Shown in pieces: positions 1 through 6,391 of a stretch of 64,000 nt of DNA (positions are counted from its first letter, which is position 1; every line of letters begins with the position of its first letter). The notes under the pieces are model-generated. The model made no database searches. It was given only the letters and a program-made list of their open reading frames with translations, and had not been told where the DNA came from. Source of the DNA: Rubrivivax sp. (GTDB lineage Bacteria > Pseudomonadota > Gammaproteobacteria > Burkholderiales > Burkholderiaceae_C); the NCBI GenBank assembly GCA_027489455.1, contig JAIXZR010000124.1:1-64000 (forward strand), in the 5' to 3' direction. The position numbers and the translations under genes are program-made.

Positions 1-2640
1 CTGCCCAACAACGCGCACCTGGCCTTCCGCAAGATCGAACGCATGGGCAAGCCCTGCATCGCGGCCATCCAGGGCGTGGCGCTGGGGGGCGGGATGGAAT
101 TCGCCCTGGCCTGCCACTGGCGCATCGCCGAGCCCACGGCGCGCTTTGGCCAGCCTGAGATCCGGCTGCGCCTGCTGCCGGGCTACGGGGGCACGCAGCG
201 CCTGCCGCGCCTGCTGGCCAGCCGCCGCGGTGAGGCCGGCCTGCGCGATGCGCTGGACCTGATCCTGGGCGGCCGCAACATCGGCGGCGCCGAGGCGCTG
301 GCGATGGGCGTGGTCGACGAGCTGCCCGACGCCGCTTCCGACGTGGTGAGCGCTGCGCATGCGCGCATCCGCGAGTACCTGGCCGCCGGTGGCGACACCG
401 GCAGCGCGCTGGGCGCCGCGCTGCGCGACCGCCACGACAGCCTGGTGGCCTGGAACCAGCCATCGCCAGTGTCGCTGGACGCAGCGCTGGCCGACGCGCA
501 CCTGCAGCAGGTGCACGCGCAGCTGGCCTGGGCCGGCCGCAGCGGCGCGCGCGACCGTGCGCTGCAGGCCATCCGCACCGGCTGGACGCAGGGTCTGGAC
601 GCCGGGCTGGCGGTGGAAGCCGAGCTCTTTGCGCAGGCCATCGTGGACCCGGAAGGCGGCAAGACCGGCATCCGGCAGTTCATGGACAAGCAGAGCCCGG
701 CGCTGCCCATCCGCCGCGGTGGCGTCAAGCCCGTGGCCGACCTGGCCGGCTGGATCGCGGACCAGACCGCGCAAGGCCAGCTGCTGGACCGCGGCGCGCC
801 GTTCTACCCCGGCATCACGCCGCTGCCGGCCTGGCAATACGCCTTCGGCGTGCCCAAGGATCCGGCCACCGGCGAGCCGCGCTTCGGCGCGCCGAAGAAG
901 AGCGAGATCGAGCTCATCGTGCCGGTGGAGACGCCCGAGCCGAACGAGGCCCTGGTCTACATGCTGTGCTCGGAAGTCAACTTCAACGACATCTGGGCGC
1001 TCACGGGCATCCCGGTCTCGCCCTTCGACAACCACGAGGAAGACGTGCAGGTCACCGGCAGCGGCGGCGTGGCCCTGGTGGCCGCGCTGGGCAGCGAAGC
1101 CAAGCGCGAGGGCCGGCTGAAGGTGGGCGATCTGGTGGCGGTGTACTCGGGCCAGACCGAACTGCTCAGCCCGCTGGCCGCACGCGACCCGATGTACGTG
1201 GGCTTCTCGATCCAGGGCTACGAGACGCGCACCGGCAGCCATGCGCAGTTCCTGGTGACGCAGGCGCCGCAGCTGCACCCGATCCCGGGCACGGGCGATC
1301 TCACCCTGGAGCAGGCAGGCAGCTACATCCTCAACCTGGGCACGATCGTGCGGGCGCTGTTCACGACGCTGAAGATCGCACCAGGCAAATCGATGTTCGT
1401 CGAAGGCGCGGCCACCGGCACCGGGCTCGAGGCACTGAAGAGCGCCACCCGCGCCGGGCTGGCCGTGACGGGCGGGGTCTCCAGCCCCGCGCGGGCCGCC
1501 TACATCGGCACGCAGGGCGCCGTGGGCGCGCTGGACCGCACCGACGCGCGCTTCGTGGGCCTCTACACGCCCGTGCCCGAGGACGACCCCGCCGCCTGGG
1601 AAGCCGCCGGCGCCCCGCTGCTGGAAGAGTTCAAGCGCCAGAACGGCGGCCGGCTGGCGGATTACGCCGTCTCGCACGCTGGCGAGACGGCCTTCCCGCG
1701 CAGCTTCCAGCTGCTGGCCGAGGGTGGGGCGCTGGCCTTCTACGGCGCTTCTTCGGGCTACCACCTCACCTTCGTCGGCAAGCCCGGCGTGGCCGCGCCC
1801 GAGGCCATGCTGCAGCGCGCCGGCGCGCGTGCCGGCGAAGCCGTGCTGCTGTACTACGGCCCGGGCAGCACCGCGCTGCTGGACGCCACGGGGCTGGAGA
1901 TGATCGAGGCCGTGCGCGCGATCGGCGCGCGCACCGTGGTCGCCACCAGCACCGACGCGCAGCGCGAGTTCGTGCAGTCGCTGGGCTTCGAGGACGCCGT
2001 GGCCGGCGTGGTGTCGCTGGAAGACATCGCGCGGCGCCAGGGCGACAACTTCCACTGGCCCCAGACCATGCCGCGGCTGGCCGATGCGAAGAAGGACATC
2101 GAGACCTTCCGCGCCGGCGTGCGCGATTTCCAGGACCGCACGCTCAAGCCCTTTGGCGCGGCCGTGGGCGCGCTGCTGCGCAGCCCGGACAACCCGCGCG
2201 GCGCGCCCGATCTGATCATCGAACGCGCCGGCCACGACGCACTGGGCGTGAGCACCTCGCTCGTCAAGCCCTTCACCGGCCGCGTGGTCTATTGCGAAGA
2301 AATGACGGGCCGCCGCTATGCCTTCTACGCCCCGCAGGTGTGGACGCGGCAGCGCCGCATCCTGATGCCGAGTGCCAGCATCCTGGGCACGCACCTGTGC
2401 AACGCCTATGAGGTGACGCGCATGAACGACATGGTCGCCTCGGGCCTGCTGGAAGTCACCGACCCGACCGTCGTGCCCTGGGAAGGCCTGCCCGCTGCGC
2501 ACCAGGCGATGTGGGACAACCAGCACCAGGGGGCCAACTACGTCGTCAACCACGCGCTGCCTGCACCGGGCTTGCGCAGCCGCGACGCCCTGTTCGAAGC
2601 CTGGGCCGCCGGCCTGCGCTCATCCGATTCGAACCACTGA
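1..2640 (+). CDS. pcs: Propionyl-CoA synthase, 3' part (hydratase and reductase domains)
   Basis: The frame is open from base 1, so the gene starts upstream; 879 residues are visible. The first ~200 residues are a crotonase fold with both enoyl-CoA hydratase glutamates (GGGMEFAL, visible residue 33, and QPEI, residue 53). From about residue 275 a zinc-free medium-chain reductase follows, with a nucleotide-binding stretch EGAATGTGLEAL near residue 466. Hydratase plus acrylyl-CoA-type reductase in one chain matches the C-terminal half of trifunctional propionyl-CoA synthase, whose missing N-terminal part would be the acyl-CoA synthetase that activates 3-hydroxypropionate. The next gene, 10 nt away, is malonyl-CoA reductase, the preceding step of the same pathway, which strongly supports this over a generic hydratase/crotonyl-CoA reductase. 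The N-terminal ligase is inferred, not seen. Confidence 0.87.
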   Translation: MPNNAHLAFRKIERMGKPCIAAIQGVALGGGMEFALACHWRIAEPTARFGQPEIRLRLLPGYGGTQRLPRLLASRRGEAGLRDALDLILGGRNIGGAEALAMGVVDELPDAASDVVSAAHARIREYLAAGGDTGSALGAALRDRHDSLVAWNQPSPVSLDAALADAHLQQVHAQLAWAGRSGARDRALQAIRTGWTQGLDAGLAVEAELFAQAIVDPEGGKTGIRQFMDKQSPALPIRRGGVKPVADLAGWIADQTAQGQLLDRGAPFYPGITPLPAWQYAFGVPKDPATGEPRFGAPKKSEIELIVPVETPEPNEALVYMLCSEVNFNDIWALTGIPVSPFDNHEEDVQVTGSGGVALVAALGSEAKREGRLKVGDLVAVYSGQTELLSPLAARDPMYVGFSIQGYETRTGSHAQFLVTQAPQLHPIPGTGDLTLEQAGSYILNLGTIVRALFTTLKIAPGKSMFVEGAATGTGLEALKSATRAGLAVTGGVSSPARAAYIGTQGAVGALDRTDARFVGLYTPVPEDDPAAWEAAGAPLLEEFKRQNGGRLADYAVSHAGETAFPRSFQLLAEGGALAFYGASSGYHLTFVGKPGVAAPEAMLQRAGARAGEAVLLYYGPGSTALLDATGLEMIEAVRAIGARTVVATSTDAQREFVQSLGFEDAVAGVVSLEDIARRQGDNFHWPQTMPRLADAKKDIETFRAGVRDFQDRTLKPFGAAVGALLRSPDNPRGAPDLIIERAGHDALGVSTSLVKPFTGRVVYCEEMTGRRYAFYAPQVWTRQRRILMPSASILGTHLCNAYEVTRMNDMVASGLLEVTDPTVVPWEGLPAAHQAMWDNQHQGANYVVNHALPAPGLRSRDALFEAWAAGLRSSDSNH

Positions 2641-2650
2641 GAGAACCGCC

Positions 2651-5600
2651 ATGGCCAAAACCAAGACCGCCCTGCCAGACACGGCAGGCTCCGCCGGCAC
2701 CCCCACCGCAGGCCGCCTGGCCGGCAAGGTGGCGCTGGTCACCGGCGCTGCCGGCAACCTGGGCGGGGAGATCGTCCGCCACTACCTGCGGCAGGGGGCC
2801 GTGGTGGTGCTGTCGGGCCGTACCCAGGCCCGCCTGAGCGCGGCGCTGGACGCGGCGCTCAACGACACCGGCGCCGCGCCCTCGCAGGCCGACACCGTGG
2901 TCATGGACGGGGCTGATCCCGACAGCGTGCGCCAGGGCATCGCCGAGCTCATCGCGCGCCACGGCCGGCTGGACATCCTGGTCAACAACGCCGGCTCGGC
3001 CGGCCCGCGCCAGCCGCTGGAAAAGGTGCCGCTGACGGAAGAAGAACTGCAGGCCCTGCGCGATGCCGGCAGCACCGATTCCGAGACCCTGGCCCAGGCC
3101 ACGCGCAACATCCTGGGCGTGTCGTGGAACATGCTGCGCGCGGCGGCGCCGGTGTTGAAGCCCGGGGCTTCGGTGATCAACGTCTCCACCATCTTCTCGC
3201 GCACCCAGTACTACGGCCGCACGGCCTACGTCGTGCCCAAGGCGGCGCTGAACGCGCTGTCGCGCGAGCTGTCGGAAGAGCTGGGCGAGCGCGGCGTGCG
3301 CGTGAACACGGTGTTCCCCGGGCCGATCCGCAGCGAACGCATCCGCAGCGTGTTTGCCAGCATGGACCAGCTCAAGGGCGCCGAAGCCGGCACCACGGCC
3401 GGCGAGTTCTTCGACCTGATGACGCTGCAACGCCGGTTCCCCGAAGGCCCGGACGACGCCGCGCCGCAGAAGGATTTCCCGATTCCGCGCGACGTGGCCA
3501 ACACCTGCGTCTTCCTGGGCAGCGATGAATCCGCGGCCTTCAACGGCCATGACTTCGAAGTCACGCACGGCATGCGCGTGCGCAAGGAAAGCCGCAGCAC
3601 CTGGGTCAGCCGGCCCACCATGCGCACCGTCGATGCCCATGGCCAGACGGTGCTGATCGCCGCCGGCGACCAGGTGGACGACGCCGTGGGCATCGCCCGG
3701 CTGTTTGCCGATGTCGGCGCCCATGTGGTGCTGGGCCTGGCGCGCGAGGGCGACTGCGCACGGGCGCGCGACCGGCTGGCCGGCCACCGATCCGACCACC
3801 GCATCGACGTGCGCGTCTTCGACCGCGCCAACCCCGCCAGCATGGACACGGCCCTGGCCGAAGACCATGGCGGCCCGATCAGCGGCGCGGTGATCCTGCC
3901 GGCGCATGGCCCGGGCCGCTTCACGGGTGGGCTGGCCGCCGTCAGCGACCTGGACATGGAAGCCTTCGTCGACGACGAACTGGGCGGCGCCATCGCCCTG
4001 GCGCGCAAGCTCAGCCGCTACTGGAAGGAGCGCAAGGACCTGGTGCAGGAGCCGCGCTTCGTCTTCATCACCAACGGCGGCGAAGCGCCCGAAGGTACCG
4101 CCGACGTGGCCCGCGCTGCCAGCGGCCTGCCCTGGGCCAGCCTGCTGCGGTCGGCGACGGAAGAGCTGATCCGCGTCTGGCGCGACGAGAGCGAGATCGA
4201 TGTGCGACTGGGCCGGCGCCAGTTCCGCGAATGGGGCAACCAGATCATCCGCTACGACAACCACGAAGCCGAGAGCCTGCCCTTCACCGCCGGCCATGCC
4301 GCGCGGCTGCTGTTCAAGGAGCAGCGCATCCGCCAGGTCAACCTGTACCTGCCCACCAGCATCGTCGAGGCCAGCGGCGCACGCCGCGCCACCGTGGGCT
4401 TCACCGAGAACCTGGCGGGCCTGCACATCGGCAAGGTGGCGCTGATCACCGGCGGCTCGGCCGGCATCGGCGGCGCGGTGGGCCGGCTGCTGGCCCTGGG
4501 CGGGGCCAAGGTGATGCTCGCCGCGCGGCGCGAAAGCGAGCTGGTGGCGGTGCGCGAGCGCATCGTGGGCGAGCTCGAAGACATCGGCTATTCCGGCGCC
4601 GGGCGCCGCGTCGGCATCCTGCCGGGCGTGGACGTGGGCCAGCTGCACACGCTGGCGCCGGCCGTGAAGGCCACCATCGCCGCGTTCGGGCGCATCGATT
4701 ACCTGATCAACAACGCCGGTGTCTCGGGTGCGGAAGAGATGGCAGTGGACATGAACGTCCAGGCCTGGAACGCCACGCTGGACGCCAACCTGGTGTCGAA
4801 CTACGTGCTGATGCACGAAGTGCTGCCGCTGATGAAGGCGCAGGGCAGCGGCTATGTGCTCAACGTGTCCAGCTTCTTCGGCGGCGAAAAGTACCTGGCC
4901 GTGGCCTACCCCAACCGCAGCGACTACGCCGTCAGCAAGGCCGGCCAGCGCGCGCTGGTGGAAAGCCTGGCCCGCTTCCTGGGGCCGGAGGTGCAGATCA
5001 ACGCCATCGCCCCCGGGCCGGTGGAAGGCGAGCGCCTGAAGGGCGTGGGCACGCGCCCGGGCCTGTTCGAACGCCGCGGCCGGCTGATCCTGGAAAACAA
5101 GCGCCTGAACGCCGTGCACAGCGCCGTCATCAAGGCGCAGCGCCGCGGCCAGCGCGTGGTGGCGATGCTGGAGCGCCTGGCCGCCAACGACGTGGCCGGG
5201 CTGGCGATGGATTCCGAAGCGCCGCATGAACTGCGCGAGCTGGCTGCCGCCTGCCACAAGGAACGCGACGACCGCTGCACCTGGGGCAGCTACCTGCTGA
5301 GCGAAGGCATCGCCAAGCGGCTGCTGGCGCGGCTGCGGCTGGGCGGCTTCCTGCTGGACAGCGCCGAATGGCAGCAGATCACCGACGCCAGCTGGCTCAA
5401 GCGGCTGCCGCCCGACGACACGCCCTACCTGCCGGGCGCCAGCATCCAGACCGAAGCCGCCAAGGTGCGCAACGGCGTGCTGTCGCTGCTGCACCTGGGC
5501 AAGATGCCCACCGAGACCGAGGTCGCGCTGGCCACGGTGTACTTCCTGGCCGACCGCGCCGTCAGCGGCGAGACCTTCATGCCTTCGGGCGGGCTGAGCC

Positions 5601-6391
5601 TGGAGCGCTCGATCACCGAGCGCGAGCTCTTCGGCAGCGCCAAGCGCGAACGGCTGGAGATGCTGCGCGGGCGCACCGTGTGGCTGATCGGCGAGCACCT
5701 GGTGGAATACCTGGCCGAGGCTGCCCGCCAGCTGGTGACGGAATGCCACGTGGGCCGCGTGGTGGTGCTCACGCGCAGCGACGAAGGCGCTGCCGCGATG
5801 CGCGCCGCGCTGCGCGACGTGCCCAGTGACCTGCTGCACACCGCCGCCGTGGGCGAAGACCTGGAAGGCGGCATCGACGCCGCACTGCGCCAGCATGGCT
5901 ACCCGGCCACGATCGTCAGCTCGCCCTTCGAGCCGCTGCCGGCCCAGCTGCTGGGCGGCGACGGCGCCACGGCGCTGGACGGGCAGGGCTTCCGCCAGAT
6001 GGTGCAGGACCAGCTGACCTTCCACTTCCGCGTCGCGCGCAAGGCCAGCCTGATCGACGGCACGCAGCTGGTGCTGGTCTCGCCCGACGTGCCCGCGGGG
6101 GCCGACCCGACGGGTGCCGGCTTTGCGATGGCCAACTTCATCAAGACCACGCTGCACGCCTTCACCGCCACGCTGGCGGTGGAGAACGAGCGCCTGGTGC
6201 ACGACGTGCCGGTGAACCAGATCAACCTGACGCGCCGTGCCCGCAGCGAAGAGCCGCGCAACCAGCACGAGCACCAGGAAGAGGTGCGCCGCTTCGGCCG
6301 CGCCGTGCTGCTGTCGGGCGCGCCGCTGGCCGGGGCCGAGGATTCGCGCTACCGCTCGCGCATCTACCGCGGCATGGCGATCACCGTCTGA
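2651..6391 (+). CDS. mcr: Bifunctional malonyl-CoA reductase (tandem SDR protein)
   Basis: This 1246-aa protein reduces malonyl-CoA to malonate semialdehyde and then to 3-hydroxypropionate with NADPH. It has two short-chain dehydrogenase units. The N-terminal one has TGAAGNLG and a YxxxK pair (Y193/K197); the second has TGGSAGIGG near residue 599 and YAVSK (Y759/K763). Length, domain order and the ending RIYRGMAITV agree with my recollection of Chloroflexus aurantiacus Mcr (about 1220 aa); no alignment was run. In that enzyme the C-terminal half makes the semialdehyde and the N-terminal half reduces it. The ATG follows a GAGAACCGCC leader 10 nt after the pcs stop, so the two genes look co-transcribed. 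Very long antisense frames here are GC artefacts. Confidence 0.93.
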   Translation: MAKTKTALPDTAGSAGTPTAGRLAGKVALVTGAAGNLGGEIVRHYLRQGAVVVLSGRTQARLSAALDAALNDTGAAPSQADTVVMDGADPDSVRQGIAELIARHGRLDILVNNAGSAGPRQPLEKVPLTEEELQALRDAGSTDSETLAQATRNILGVSWNMLRAAAPVLKPGASVINVSTIFSRTQYYGRTAYVVPKAALNALSRELSEELGERGVRVNTVFPGPIRSERIRSVFASMDQLKGAEAGTTAGEFFDLMTLQRRFPEGPDDAAPQKDFPIPRDVANTCVFLGSDESAAFNGHDFEVTHGMRVRKESRSTWVSRPTMRTVDAHGQTVLIAAGDQVDDAVGIARLFADVGAHVVLGLAREGDCARARDRLAGHRSDHRIDVRVFDRANPASMDTALAEDHGGPISGAVILPAHGPGRFTGGLAAVSDLDMEAFVDDELGGAIALARKLSRYWKERKDLVQEPRFVFITNGGEAPEGTADVARAASGLPWASLLRSATEELIRVWRDESEIDVRLGRRQFREWGNQIIRYDNHEAESLPFTAGHAARLLFKEQRIRQVNLYLPTSIVEASGARRATVGFTENLAGLHIGKVALITGGSAGIGGAVGRLLALGGAKVMLAARRESELVAVRERIVGELEDIGYSGAGRRVGILPGVDVGQLHTLAPAVKATIAAFGRIDYLINNAGVSGAEEMAVDMNVQAWNATLDANLVSNYVLMHEVLPLMKAQGSGYVLNVSSFFGGEKYLAVAYPNRSDYAVSKAGQRALVESLARFLGPEVQINAIAPGPVEGERLKGVGTRPGLFERRGRLILENKRLNAVHSAVIKAQRRGQRVVAMLERLAANDVAGLAMDSEAPHELRELAAACHKERDDRCTWGSYLLSEGIAKRLLARLRLGGFLLDSAEWQQITDASWLKRLPPDDTPYLPGASIQTEAAKVRNGVLSLLHLGKMPTETEVALATVYFLADRAVSGETFMPSGGLSLERSITERELFGSAKRERLEMLRGRTVWLIGEHLVEYLAEAARQLVTECHVGRVVVLTRSDEGAAAMRAALRDVPSDLLHTAAVGEDLEGGIDAALRQHGYPATIVSSPFEPLPAQLLGGDGATALDGQGFRQMVQDQLTFHFRVARKASLIDGTQLVLVSPDVPAGADPTGAGFAMANFIKTTLHAFTATLAVENERLVHDVPVNQINLTRRARSEEPRNQHEHQEEVRRFGRAVLLSGAPLAGAEDSRYRSRIYRGMAITV

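Follow-up and report, generated by a model that had tools for sequence, protein, structure and literature searches.

The pcs-mcr Locus

The DNA analyzed here (the window) is a 64,000-bp stretch of a Rubrivivax sp. draft metagenome-assembled genome (MAG), covering positions 1-64000 of the 78,632-bp contig C262, and it opens with the genes for propionyl-CoA synthase (pcs) and malonyl-CoA reductase (mcr) of the 3-hydroxypropionate (3HP) bi-cycle, an uncommon pathway of CO2 fixation known mainly from Chloroflexus. The host MAG (G000) has 4.47 Mb in 315 contigs, with 90.7% completeness and 7.4% contamination. An original prediction, made from the sequence alone, had placed this adjacent pair at the start of the window, and matches to the solved structures 6eqo, 8hi4 and 8hjw agree with it, coordinates included.

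The window holds the C-terminal part of pcs (1-2640, + strand). The gene is truncated at the contig start, and its frame, already open at base 1, encodes the last 879 residues of Pcs. Its best solved match is 6eqo_A (1285.6 bits; query residues 1-871, chain residues 975-1842 of 1850), whose record is titled 'Acetyl-coenzyme A synthetase' and which is taken here to be the Pcs of Erythrobacter NAP1. Domain matches on this side correspond to the C-terminal portion of a crotonase-type dehydratase domain (1-654, + strand; ECH_1 at residues 9-141, with a FadJ-like match to residue 218) and to an enoyl-CoA (acryloyl-CoA) reductase domain of the medium-chain dehydrogenase/reductase type (880-2613, + strand; TIGR01751 at residues 294-591, ADH_zinc_N at 473-586, and the 6eqo match to residue 871).

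The N-terminal ligase part of pcs is encoded on contig C133 of the same genome (L102:3-3020, - strand). A search of the host genome with the N-terminal 968 residues of Pcs from the relative G005 (P0003) located it at C133:90-2987 (-), with 86% identity, and Pfam found there the AMP-binding domain PF00501 (3.1e-49) as well as crotonase sequence. The end of C133 equals the start of C262 over exactly 119 bp, a pattern that a cut in an assembly graph would leave, and the joined contigs give a single open frame of 1846 aa from an ATG, so that one Pcs chain combines the ligase domain with those of the dehydratase and the reductase. The ligase domain that the original prediction proposed to look for upstream of the window is therefore present, and a reading of the frame as a protein without it was ruled out.

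The mcr gene (2651-6391, + strand; 1246 aa) starts 10 bp past the pcs stop. Its product matches 8hi4 (1168.6 bits) and 8hjw (1122.5 bits), presumably the Mcr of Roseiflexus and Chloroflexus, respectively, over the full length of both sides, whereas the best ordinary short-chain dehydrogenase/reductase (SDR) in the same structure search reached 80 bits; an identity as an unrelated SDR or polyketide reductase was rejected on these scores. The protein consists of two tandem SDR halves and falls within the size class of ~1220-1250 aa. The N-terminal half (2651-4375, + strand) matches 6k8v_A (query 1-580, 661.9 bits) and keeps S179, Y193 and K197, and the C-terminal half (4376-6388, + strand) matches 6k8s_A (query 571-1246, 951.3 bits) and keeps S740-S741, Y759 and K763. 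The Ser-Tyr-Lys positions, which we take to be the SDR catalytic motif, are thus retained in both halves, presumably the malonate-semialdehyde reductase and the malonyl-CoA reductase half, respectively. Together with the Mcr tree described below, this identifies the gene as encoding a full bifunctional malonyl-CoA reductase, with activity predicted from its sequence.

Second-Cycle Genes Next to pcs

Upstream of pcs and in the same direction, C133 carries mch, mcl and mct, whose products have 360, 351 and 411 aa, respectively, followed further upstream by an adjacent pair of genes for class III CoA-transferases (408 aa and at most 467 aa). The spacing between genes is short, at about -4 to 70 bp (stop codons counted, starts taken mechanically). 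Divergent to this run are a gene for a MaoC-type hydratase, the meh candidate, and a LysR gene; including pcs-mcr, the cluster comprises ~15 kb. Mcl scored 648 bits against 4l7z, which is assumed here to be the Chloroflexus malyl-/beta-methylmalyl-/citramalyl-CoA lyase, and 195 bits against the malyl-CoA lyase 4l9y. Mct scored 664 bits against 7xkg and 650 bits against the 2-methylfumaryl-CoA isomerase 8apq, and Mch scored 576 bits against 4e3e and 456 bits against the beta-methylmalyl-CoA dehydratase 8hgn. The meh candidate reached 220 bits against 8huc/8khg, with a weak Pfam match and no NCBIfam match. By homology, mcl, mct and mch are assigned as the predicted genes of a Chloroflexus-type second cycle. 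The mesaconyl-CoA and malyl-CoA enzymes that were to be sought in the genome thus have homologs right next to pcs, and their presence makes the case for a bi-cycle stronger than the author of the original prediction could see. Compared with the LysR gene of C133, those adjoining the meh candidate in G005 (L005) and G037 (L007) are only ~30% identical; hence, the regulator may differ among lineages.

Other genes of the pathway are found elsewhere in the host genome. The 3-kb contig C154 has the genes for methylmalonyl-CoA mutase (mcm) and meaB and the start of pccB, in the same order as in G005, whose cluster also includes pccA and an epimerase-like gene. The contig ends inside pccB, and the pccB fragment is 94% identical to pccB of G005. 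Biotin carboxylase genes are also present. The carboxylase and mutase that the original prediction listed for checking were recovered in part (mcm, meaB, the pccB fragment and the biotin carboxylase genes), with pccA and an epimerase gene not seen in this genome.

Isocitrate lyase was searched in 16 genomes, comprising six mcr carriers (G000, G005, G037, G178, G223 and the 79%-complete G508), nine phototrophs without mcr, and G094, a non-carrier from the host's own genus. PF00463 was above its cut-off in 16/16 genomes; counting only matches above 90 bits (a threshold set here), the enzyme occurs in four of the six carriers (a fragment in G000, and G005, G178 and G223), and the scores in G037 and G508 were only 52 and 50 bits. 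A role of pcs-mcr as a general stand-in for an absent glyoxylate bypass was rejected on the basis of these four carriers.

Phototrophy and RuBisCO

Contig C94 of the host genome contains puhA, acsF, puhE and pufC over their cut-offs, as well as a 76-residue match to the end of pufM at the contig edge; pufL was not seen in the genome, and for bacteriochlorophyll synthesis the search covered acsF. By gene content, the host is a predicted anoxygenic type II phototroph, so that the phototrophy genes named in the original prediction as worth seeking are represented by reaction-center genes and acsF on one contig. The PufC encoded on C94 (L117:12119-13489, - strand) has an extra OmpA-like C-terminal domain, which also occurs in G005 (L118) and G059 (L115); in seven other pufC-bearing genomes (L109-L114, L120), the frame ends at most 43 residues past the matched part.

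The large subunit of ribulose 1,5-bisphosphate carboxylase/oxygenase (RuBisCO) had no match in the host draft, which is 90.7% complete. Reaction-center genes were searched in 80 genomes, the 74 non-carriers being drawn from the 149 other genomes of the window's family, and RuBisCO in the 16 genomes listed above; the six carriers combine two draws and represent two families, and two of them are incomplete (90.7% and 79%). All six carriers have reaction-center genes, compared with 9/74 non-carriers (Fisher p = 1.7e-5). Form-I-scoring RuBisCO (above 400 bits, a threshold set here) was found in none of the six carriers vs seven of the nine phototrophic non-carriers (Fisher p = 0.007). Within the window's family, the same comparisons gave 3/3 carriers vs 9/74 non-carriers for the reaction center (p = 0.003) and 0/3 carriers vs 7/9 phototrophic non-carriers for form-I-scoring RuBisCO (p = 0.045). 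The latter is also present in G094.

Organization of the Locus in Other Genomes

A scan of GTDB contigs for relatives of Mcr was analyzed for the best 80 of 218 matches, 12 of them labeled betaproteobacterial (L012-L023) and 68 alphaproteobacterial. Upstream sequence was available for 10 distinct betaproteobacterial loci (window/C133, L012, L013, L015, L016, L017, L019, L023, G037 and G223), nine of which have mcl and mch within the pcs or mcr locus, with L016 as the exception. Other genes of the cluster were seen in betaproteobacterial loci as far as the contigs extend. In G223, pcs and mcr are separated and the gene order is altered.

In the alphaproteobacteria, pcs is followed by mcr in 65/68 loci, with the matches 12-226 bp apart, and no second-cycle genes were found in the fetched flanks of the 68 loci (E 1e-10, more than 30% of the query covered; at least 2.5 kb of sequence upstream of pcs in 53/68). 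In 43 of the 68 loci (L024-L091), the gene after mcr belongs to one family, whose sole tested representative, L050:13725-14648, is accA (PF03255). Photosynthesis genes were sought beside alphaproteobacterial pcs-mcr via seven recurrent neighbors, of which four are housekeeping-type families and three were unmatched. The sole pufC match among the alphaproteobacterial loci is a pufC-like one in a Porphyrobacter MAG, ~5 kb downstream of mcr (L068:18438-19355, - strand).

A single-chain acyl-CoA carboxylase of ~1820 aa, with fused biotin carboxylase, biotin carboxyl carrier and carboxyltransferase domains, is encoded directly after mcr in 4/9 betaproteobacterial loci with at least 5 kb of downstream sequence (L016, L017/G178, L021 and G223; coordinates L016:13681-19152, L017:13925-19354, L021:8084-13510 and L106:3226-8643). 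It is lacking in the window, L012, L014, L023 and G037, and no full-length copy was found in the host genome. The fused carboxylase of L016 has a middle region of ~630 residues without a Pfam match, and modeling the structure of the fused enzyme's middle region (~650 residues) gave a result of low confidence (mean pLDDT, the predicted local distance difference test score, 44.7). Given the accA-family or fused carboxylase gene after mcr, several lineages set a likely malonyl-CoA-making enzyme beside pcs-mcr, which the window lineage does not.

Phylogeny and Gene Transfer

Mcr is rare in the relatives of the host, being present in 3/150 genomes of the family (2/149 without the host) and 4/399 of the order (3/398 without the host), and it had no match in G094, the one genome of the same genus listed. 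Quick trees with SH-aLRT support were built for both proteins. The Mcr tree has 43 rows (the window, L012-L023, L003, L010, 26 of the 68 alphaproteobacterial loci and two partial outgroup sequences), where the two outgroups are the only Chloroflexota and other groups are absent. Fourteen betaproteobacterial rows make up one clade (99), and the alphaproteobacterial rows are its sister group (99). The Mcr of G223 (L010) falls outside the betaproteobacterial clade; its branch is long and joins at the outgroup, which leaves its deep placement unsure, although a single betaproteobacterial clade with G223 as a member is rejected by the approximately unbiased (AU) test (p = 1.1e-4). The Pcs tree, unrooted and built from 33 rows without an outgroup, has its 11 betaproteobacterial rows, G223 among them, on one side of a branch (99). 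In both trees, as the original prediction proposed to verify, the window's proteins group with genuine Mcr and Pcs, beside the alphaproteobacterial ones. The position of L013 differs between the trees: its Mcr falls with the window's group (100), its Pcs with that of L023 (100), a conflict suggestive of recombination or separate exchange of pcs and mcr within the betaproteobacterial group.

The nearest relative of the window is Rubrivivax sp. C4_MAG_00063 (L012), with 92% identity for Mcr and 93% for Pcs, and both have zinc-peptidase and recB-like genes downstream. The G+C content at third codon positions (GC3) of pcs and mcr is like that of their near neighbors, and a lower-GC3 stretch at ~26-62 kb of the window lies apart from them. 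A recent import with foreign base composition was rejected on this similarity, and a plasmid-borne trait was rejected within one collection, where Mcr was unmatched in 72,556 plasmid records (E 1e-100). The horizontal acquisition suggested by the original prediction is supported as a general movement of the genes, indicated by their patchy occurrence, by G094 without a match, and by G178 and G223, which share a genus but for which a sister relationship of their Mcr is rejected (AU p = 6.8e-7, with G223 on its long branch). A recent transfer into the window lineage is unsupported, given the neighbor-like GC3 and the downstream flank in common with L012.

Proposed Role of the Cluster

On the basis of gene content, order, homology and phylogeny, the pcs-mcr pair is probably the 3' end of a single-locus bi-cycle cluster in a Rubrivivax-like phototroph without detected RuBisCO, where its likeliest role would be light-powered mixotrophy. 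Flux through the bi-cycle, its regulation and any autotrophy in the host are inferred, as is the co-assimilation of CO2 and organic acids suggested by the original prediction. In the proposed route, which follows the established biochemistry of the bi-cycle, acetyl-CoA would be carboxylated to malonyl-CoA, which Mcr would reduce with NADPH to 3-hydroxypropionate, and Pcs would convert this to propionyl-CoA. Propionyl-CoA carboxylase and methylmalonyl-CoA mutase would then lead from propionyl-CoA to succinyl-CoA, SmtAB would convert succinyl-CoA to malyl-CoA, and Mcl would split malyl-CoA into acetyl-CoA and glyoxylate. In the second cycle, glyoxylate and propionyl-CoA would be converted by Mcl, Mch, Mct and Meh via citramalyl-CoA to pyruvate and acetyl-CoA. 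Instead of running a Calvin cycle, the host may in this way assimilate bicarbonate together with acetate, 3-hydroxypropionate, propionate or glycolate. Phototrophs of the aerobic type are usually photoheterotrophic, and because of this and of the presence of isocitrate lyase, mixotrophic co-assimilation fits best.

Several observations weigh against this interpretation. Within the cluster, Mct scored 684.8 bits on NCBIfam TIGR04253, below the curated cut-off of 725; among relatives with a title, the one nearest to the meh candidate (8khg) is an itaconyl-CoA hydratase; and the two CoA-transferases have no equivalog model above cut-off, so that their names as smtA/smtB candidates come from position. 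In the host draft, pccA and the epimerase were not seen, at 90.7% completeness and with C154 stopping within pccB, and the isocitrate lyase fragment means that acetate could be assimilated without the bi-cycle. The carriers G178 and G223 have only an IcmF-type mutase (NF045497 over cut-off) and no ordinary methylmalonyl-CoA mutase, and G508 (79% complete) has only two partial, untyped mutase matches; thus, the pathway may be incomplete in that carrier family. As for RuBisCO, its absence is weak evidence for the host taken alone, considering the completeness, contamination and fragmentation of the MAG. G178 has one RuBisCO-family match (207 bits), probably a RuBisCO-like protein, and the phototrophic non-carriers G001 and G045 also lack RuBisCO, so mcr is not the sole alternative. 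Finally, the Fisher tests treat related genomes as independent, and the nine phototrophic non-carriers all belong to one family, with three of the six carriers in another.

The same genes could serve a purely heterotrophic use, namely the disposal or assimilation of 3-hydroxypropionate, propionate, glyoxylate, mesaconate or itaconate, or NADPH balance, with incidental uptake of bicarbonate. The 68 alphaproteobacterial loci without a second-cycle gene in their fetched flanks, isocitrate lyase above 90 bits in four of the six carriers, and the itaconyl-CoA hydratase related to the meh candidate are in line with such a use, and assimilation of organic substrates has been proposed for incomplete Actinobacteriota gene sets (section 7 of PMC9802188). 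It is nonetheless unlikely, as Mct, the meh candidate and an Mcl of the 4l7z type suit a reassimilation of glyoxylate tied to Pcs-Mcr, and the carriers are associated with phototrophy and lack form-I-scoring RuBisCO. At the other extreme stands full photoautotrophy, that is, growth on light, CO2 and an inorganic electron donor via the bi-cycle alone. The oxidative cyclase gene acsF, suggestive of the usually photoheterotrophic aerobic type, makes this quite improbable here, even with the bi-cycle-specific genes in one locus plus photosynthesis genes, and with bi-cycle fixation, photosynthesis and inorganic donors predicted together in Burkholderiaceae MAGs (PMC9802188).

There is also very little probability that the pattern is a binning or assembly artifact, in which C133, C262, C94 and C154 would come from different organisms. 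Contamination of 7.4%, the 315 contigs, and the linkage of C94 and C154 to C262 by binning alone would allow it; however, the 119-bp overlap is exact and the gene continuous over C133/C262, the same gene order recurs in the separately assembled L012, G005 and G037, and the five other carriers have reaction-center genes too. Light-powered mixotrophy through a one-locus bi-cycle is retained as the preferred reading.

A broader reading, put forward tentatively and with some doubt, is that the bi-cycle and the RuBisCO-based Calvin cycle may be interchangeable carbon modules in phototrophic Burkholderiales, where a complete bi-cycle cassette, moved horizontally in a single locus, would replace RuBisCO and support net light-driven CO2 fixation in a little-recognized guild, while the alphaproteobacterial relatives would have only the front half with an adjoining carboxylase gene. 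If so, RuBisCO-based surveys would overlook part of the CO2 uptake of such phototrophs, and engineering for 3-hydroxypropionate and CO2 fixation would have a natural cassette in this cluster. With a compact one-locus version in betaproteobacterial phototrophs in which no RuBisCO was detected, use of the bi-cycle outside Chloroflexota becomes testable, and a cultured strain may exist, since the record of the carrier Piscinibacter sp. MQ-18 (L019) is not labeled as a MAG. The most notable features are the RuBisCO contrast among phototrophic Burkholderiales and the split between half and full gene sets in the two classes.

Comparison with Known Systems

As in the bi-cycle of Chloroflexus aurantiacus, the gene set includes a bifunctional Mcr, a trifunctional Pcs, Mcl, Mct, Mch, a Meh candidate and paired CoA-transferases. 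Unlike in Chloroflexus, where pcs and mcr presumably lie at separate places in the genome, here they are in one run with the second-cycle genes, and the host, a betaproteobacterium, has type II reaction-center genes and acsF. The alphaproteobacterial systems (Erythrobacter, Porphyrobacter, Sphingomonas, Blastomonas and others) also have pcs followed by mcr and form the sister clade in the Mcr tree; however, they differ from the window's cluster in their fetched flanks, which are without second-cycle genes and have a gene of the family with the accA representative after mcr in 43/68 loci. A multidomain acetyl-CoA carboxylase in a bacterium, to be compared with the fused carboxylase genes of other carriers, is presented as new in PMC6491548.

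Second-cycle genes in proteobacteria, a betaproteobacterium included, are also known from Kentron, with a partial 3HP bi-cycle reported without mcr and pcs, and from 'Candidatus Accumulibacter', likewise named in that work (PMC6593406). Kentron is thus the reverse of the alphaproteobacterial half-set. Garritano et al. (2022) note that the bi-cycle was long ascribed to Chloroflexota only; they predict both it and photosynthesis for four Burkholderiaceae and three Ga0077523 MAGs, in which the glyoxylate-salvage genes are grouped, and carbon fixation by the bi-cycle with inorganic donor use in the Burkholderiaceae MAGs (PMC9802188). Section 7 of that paper states neither the presence of pcs-mcr in the same cluster nor the RuBisCO contrast, and beyond it no other paper on pcs-mcr in Burkholderiales was recognized in the literature searches. 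Those MAGs resemble the present host in belonging to the same order and in having the same pathway, photosynthesis and grouped salvage genes. The bi-cycle with photosynthesis in Burkholderiaceae was therefore already predicted in 2022, and the window and its genome add a further carrier and new detail to it.

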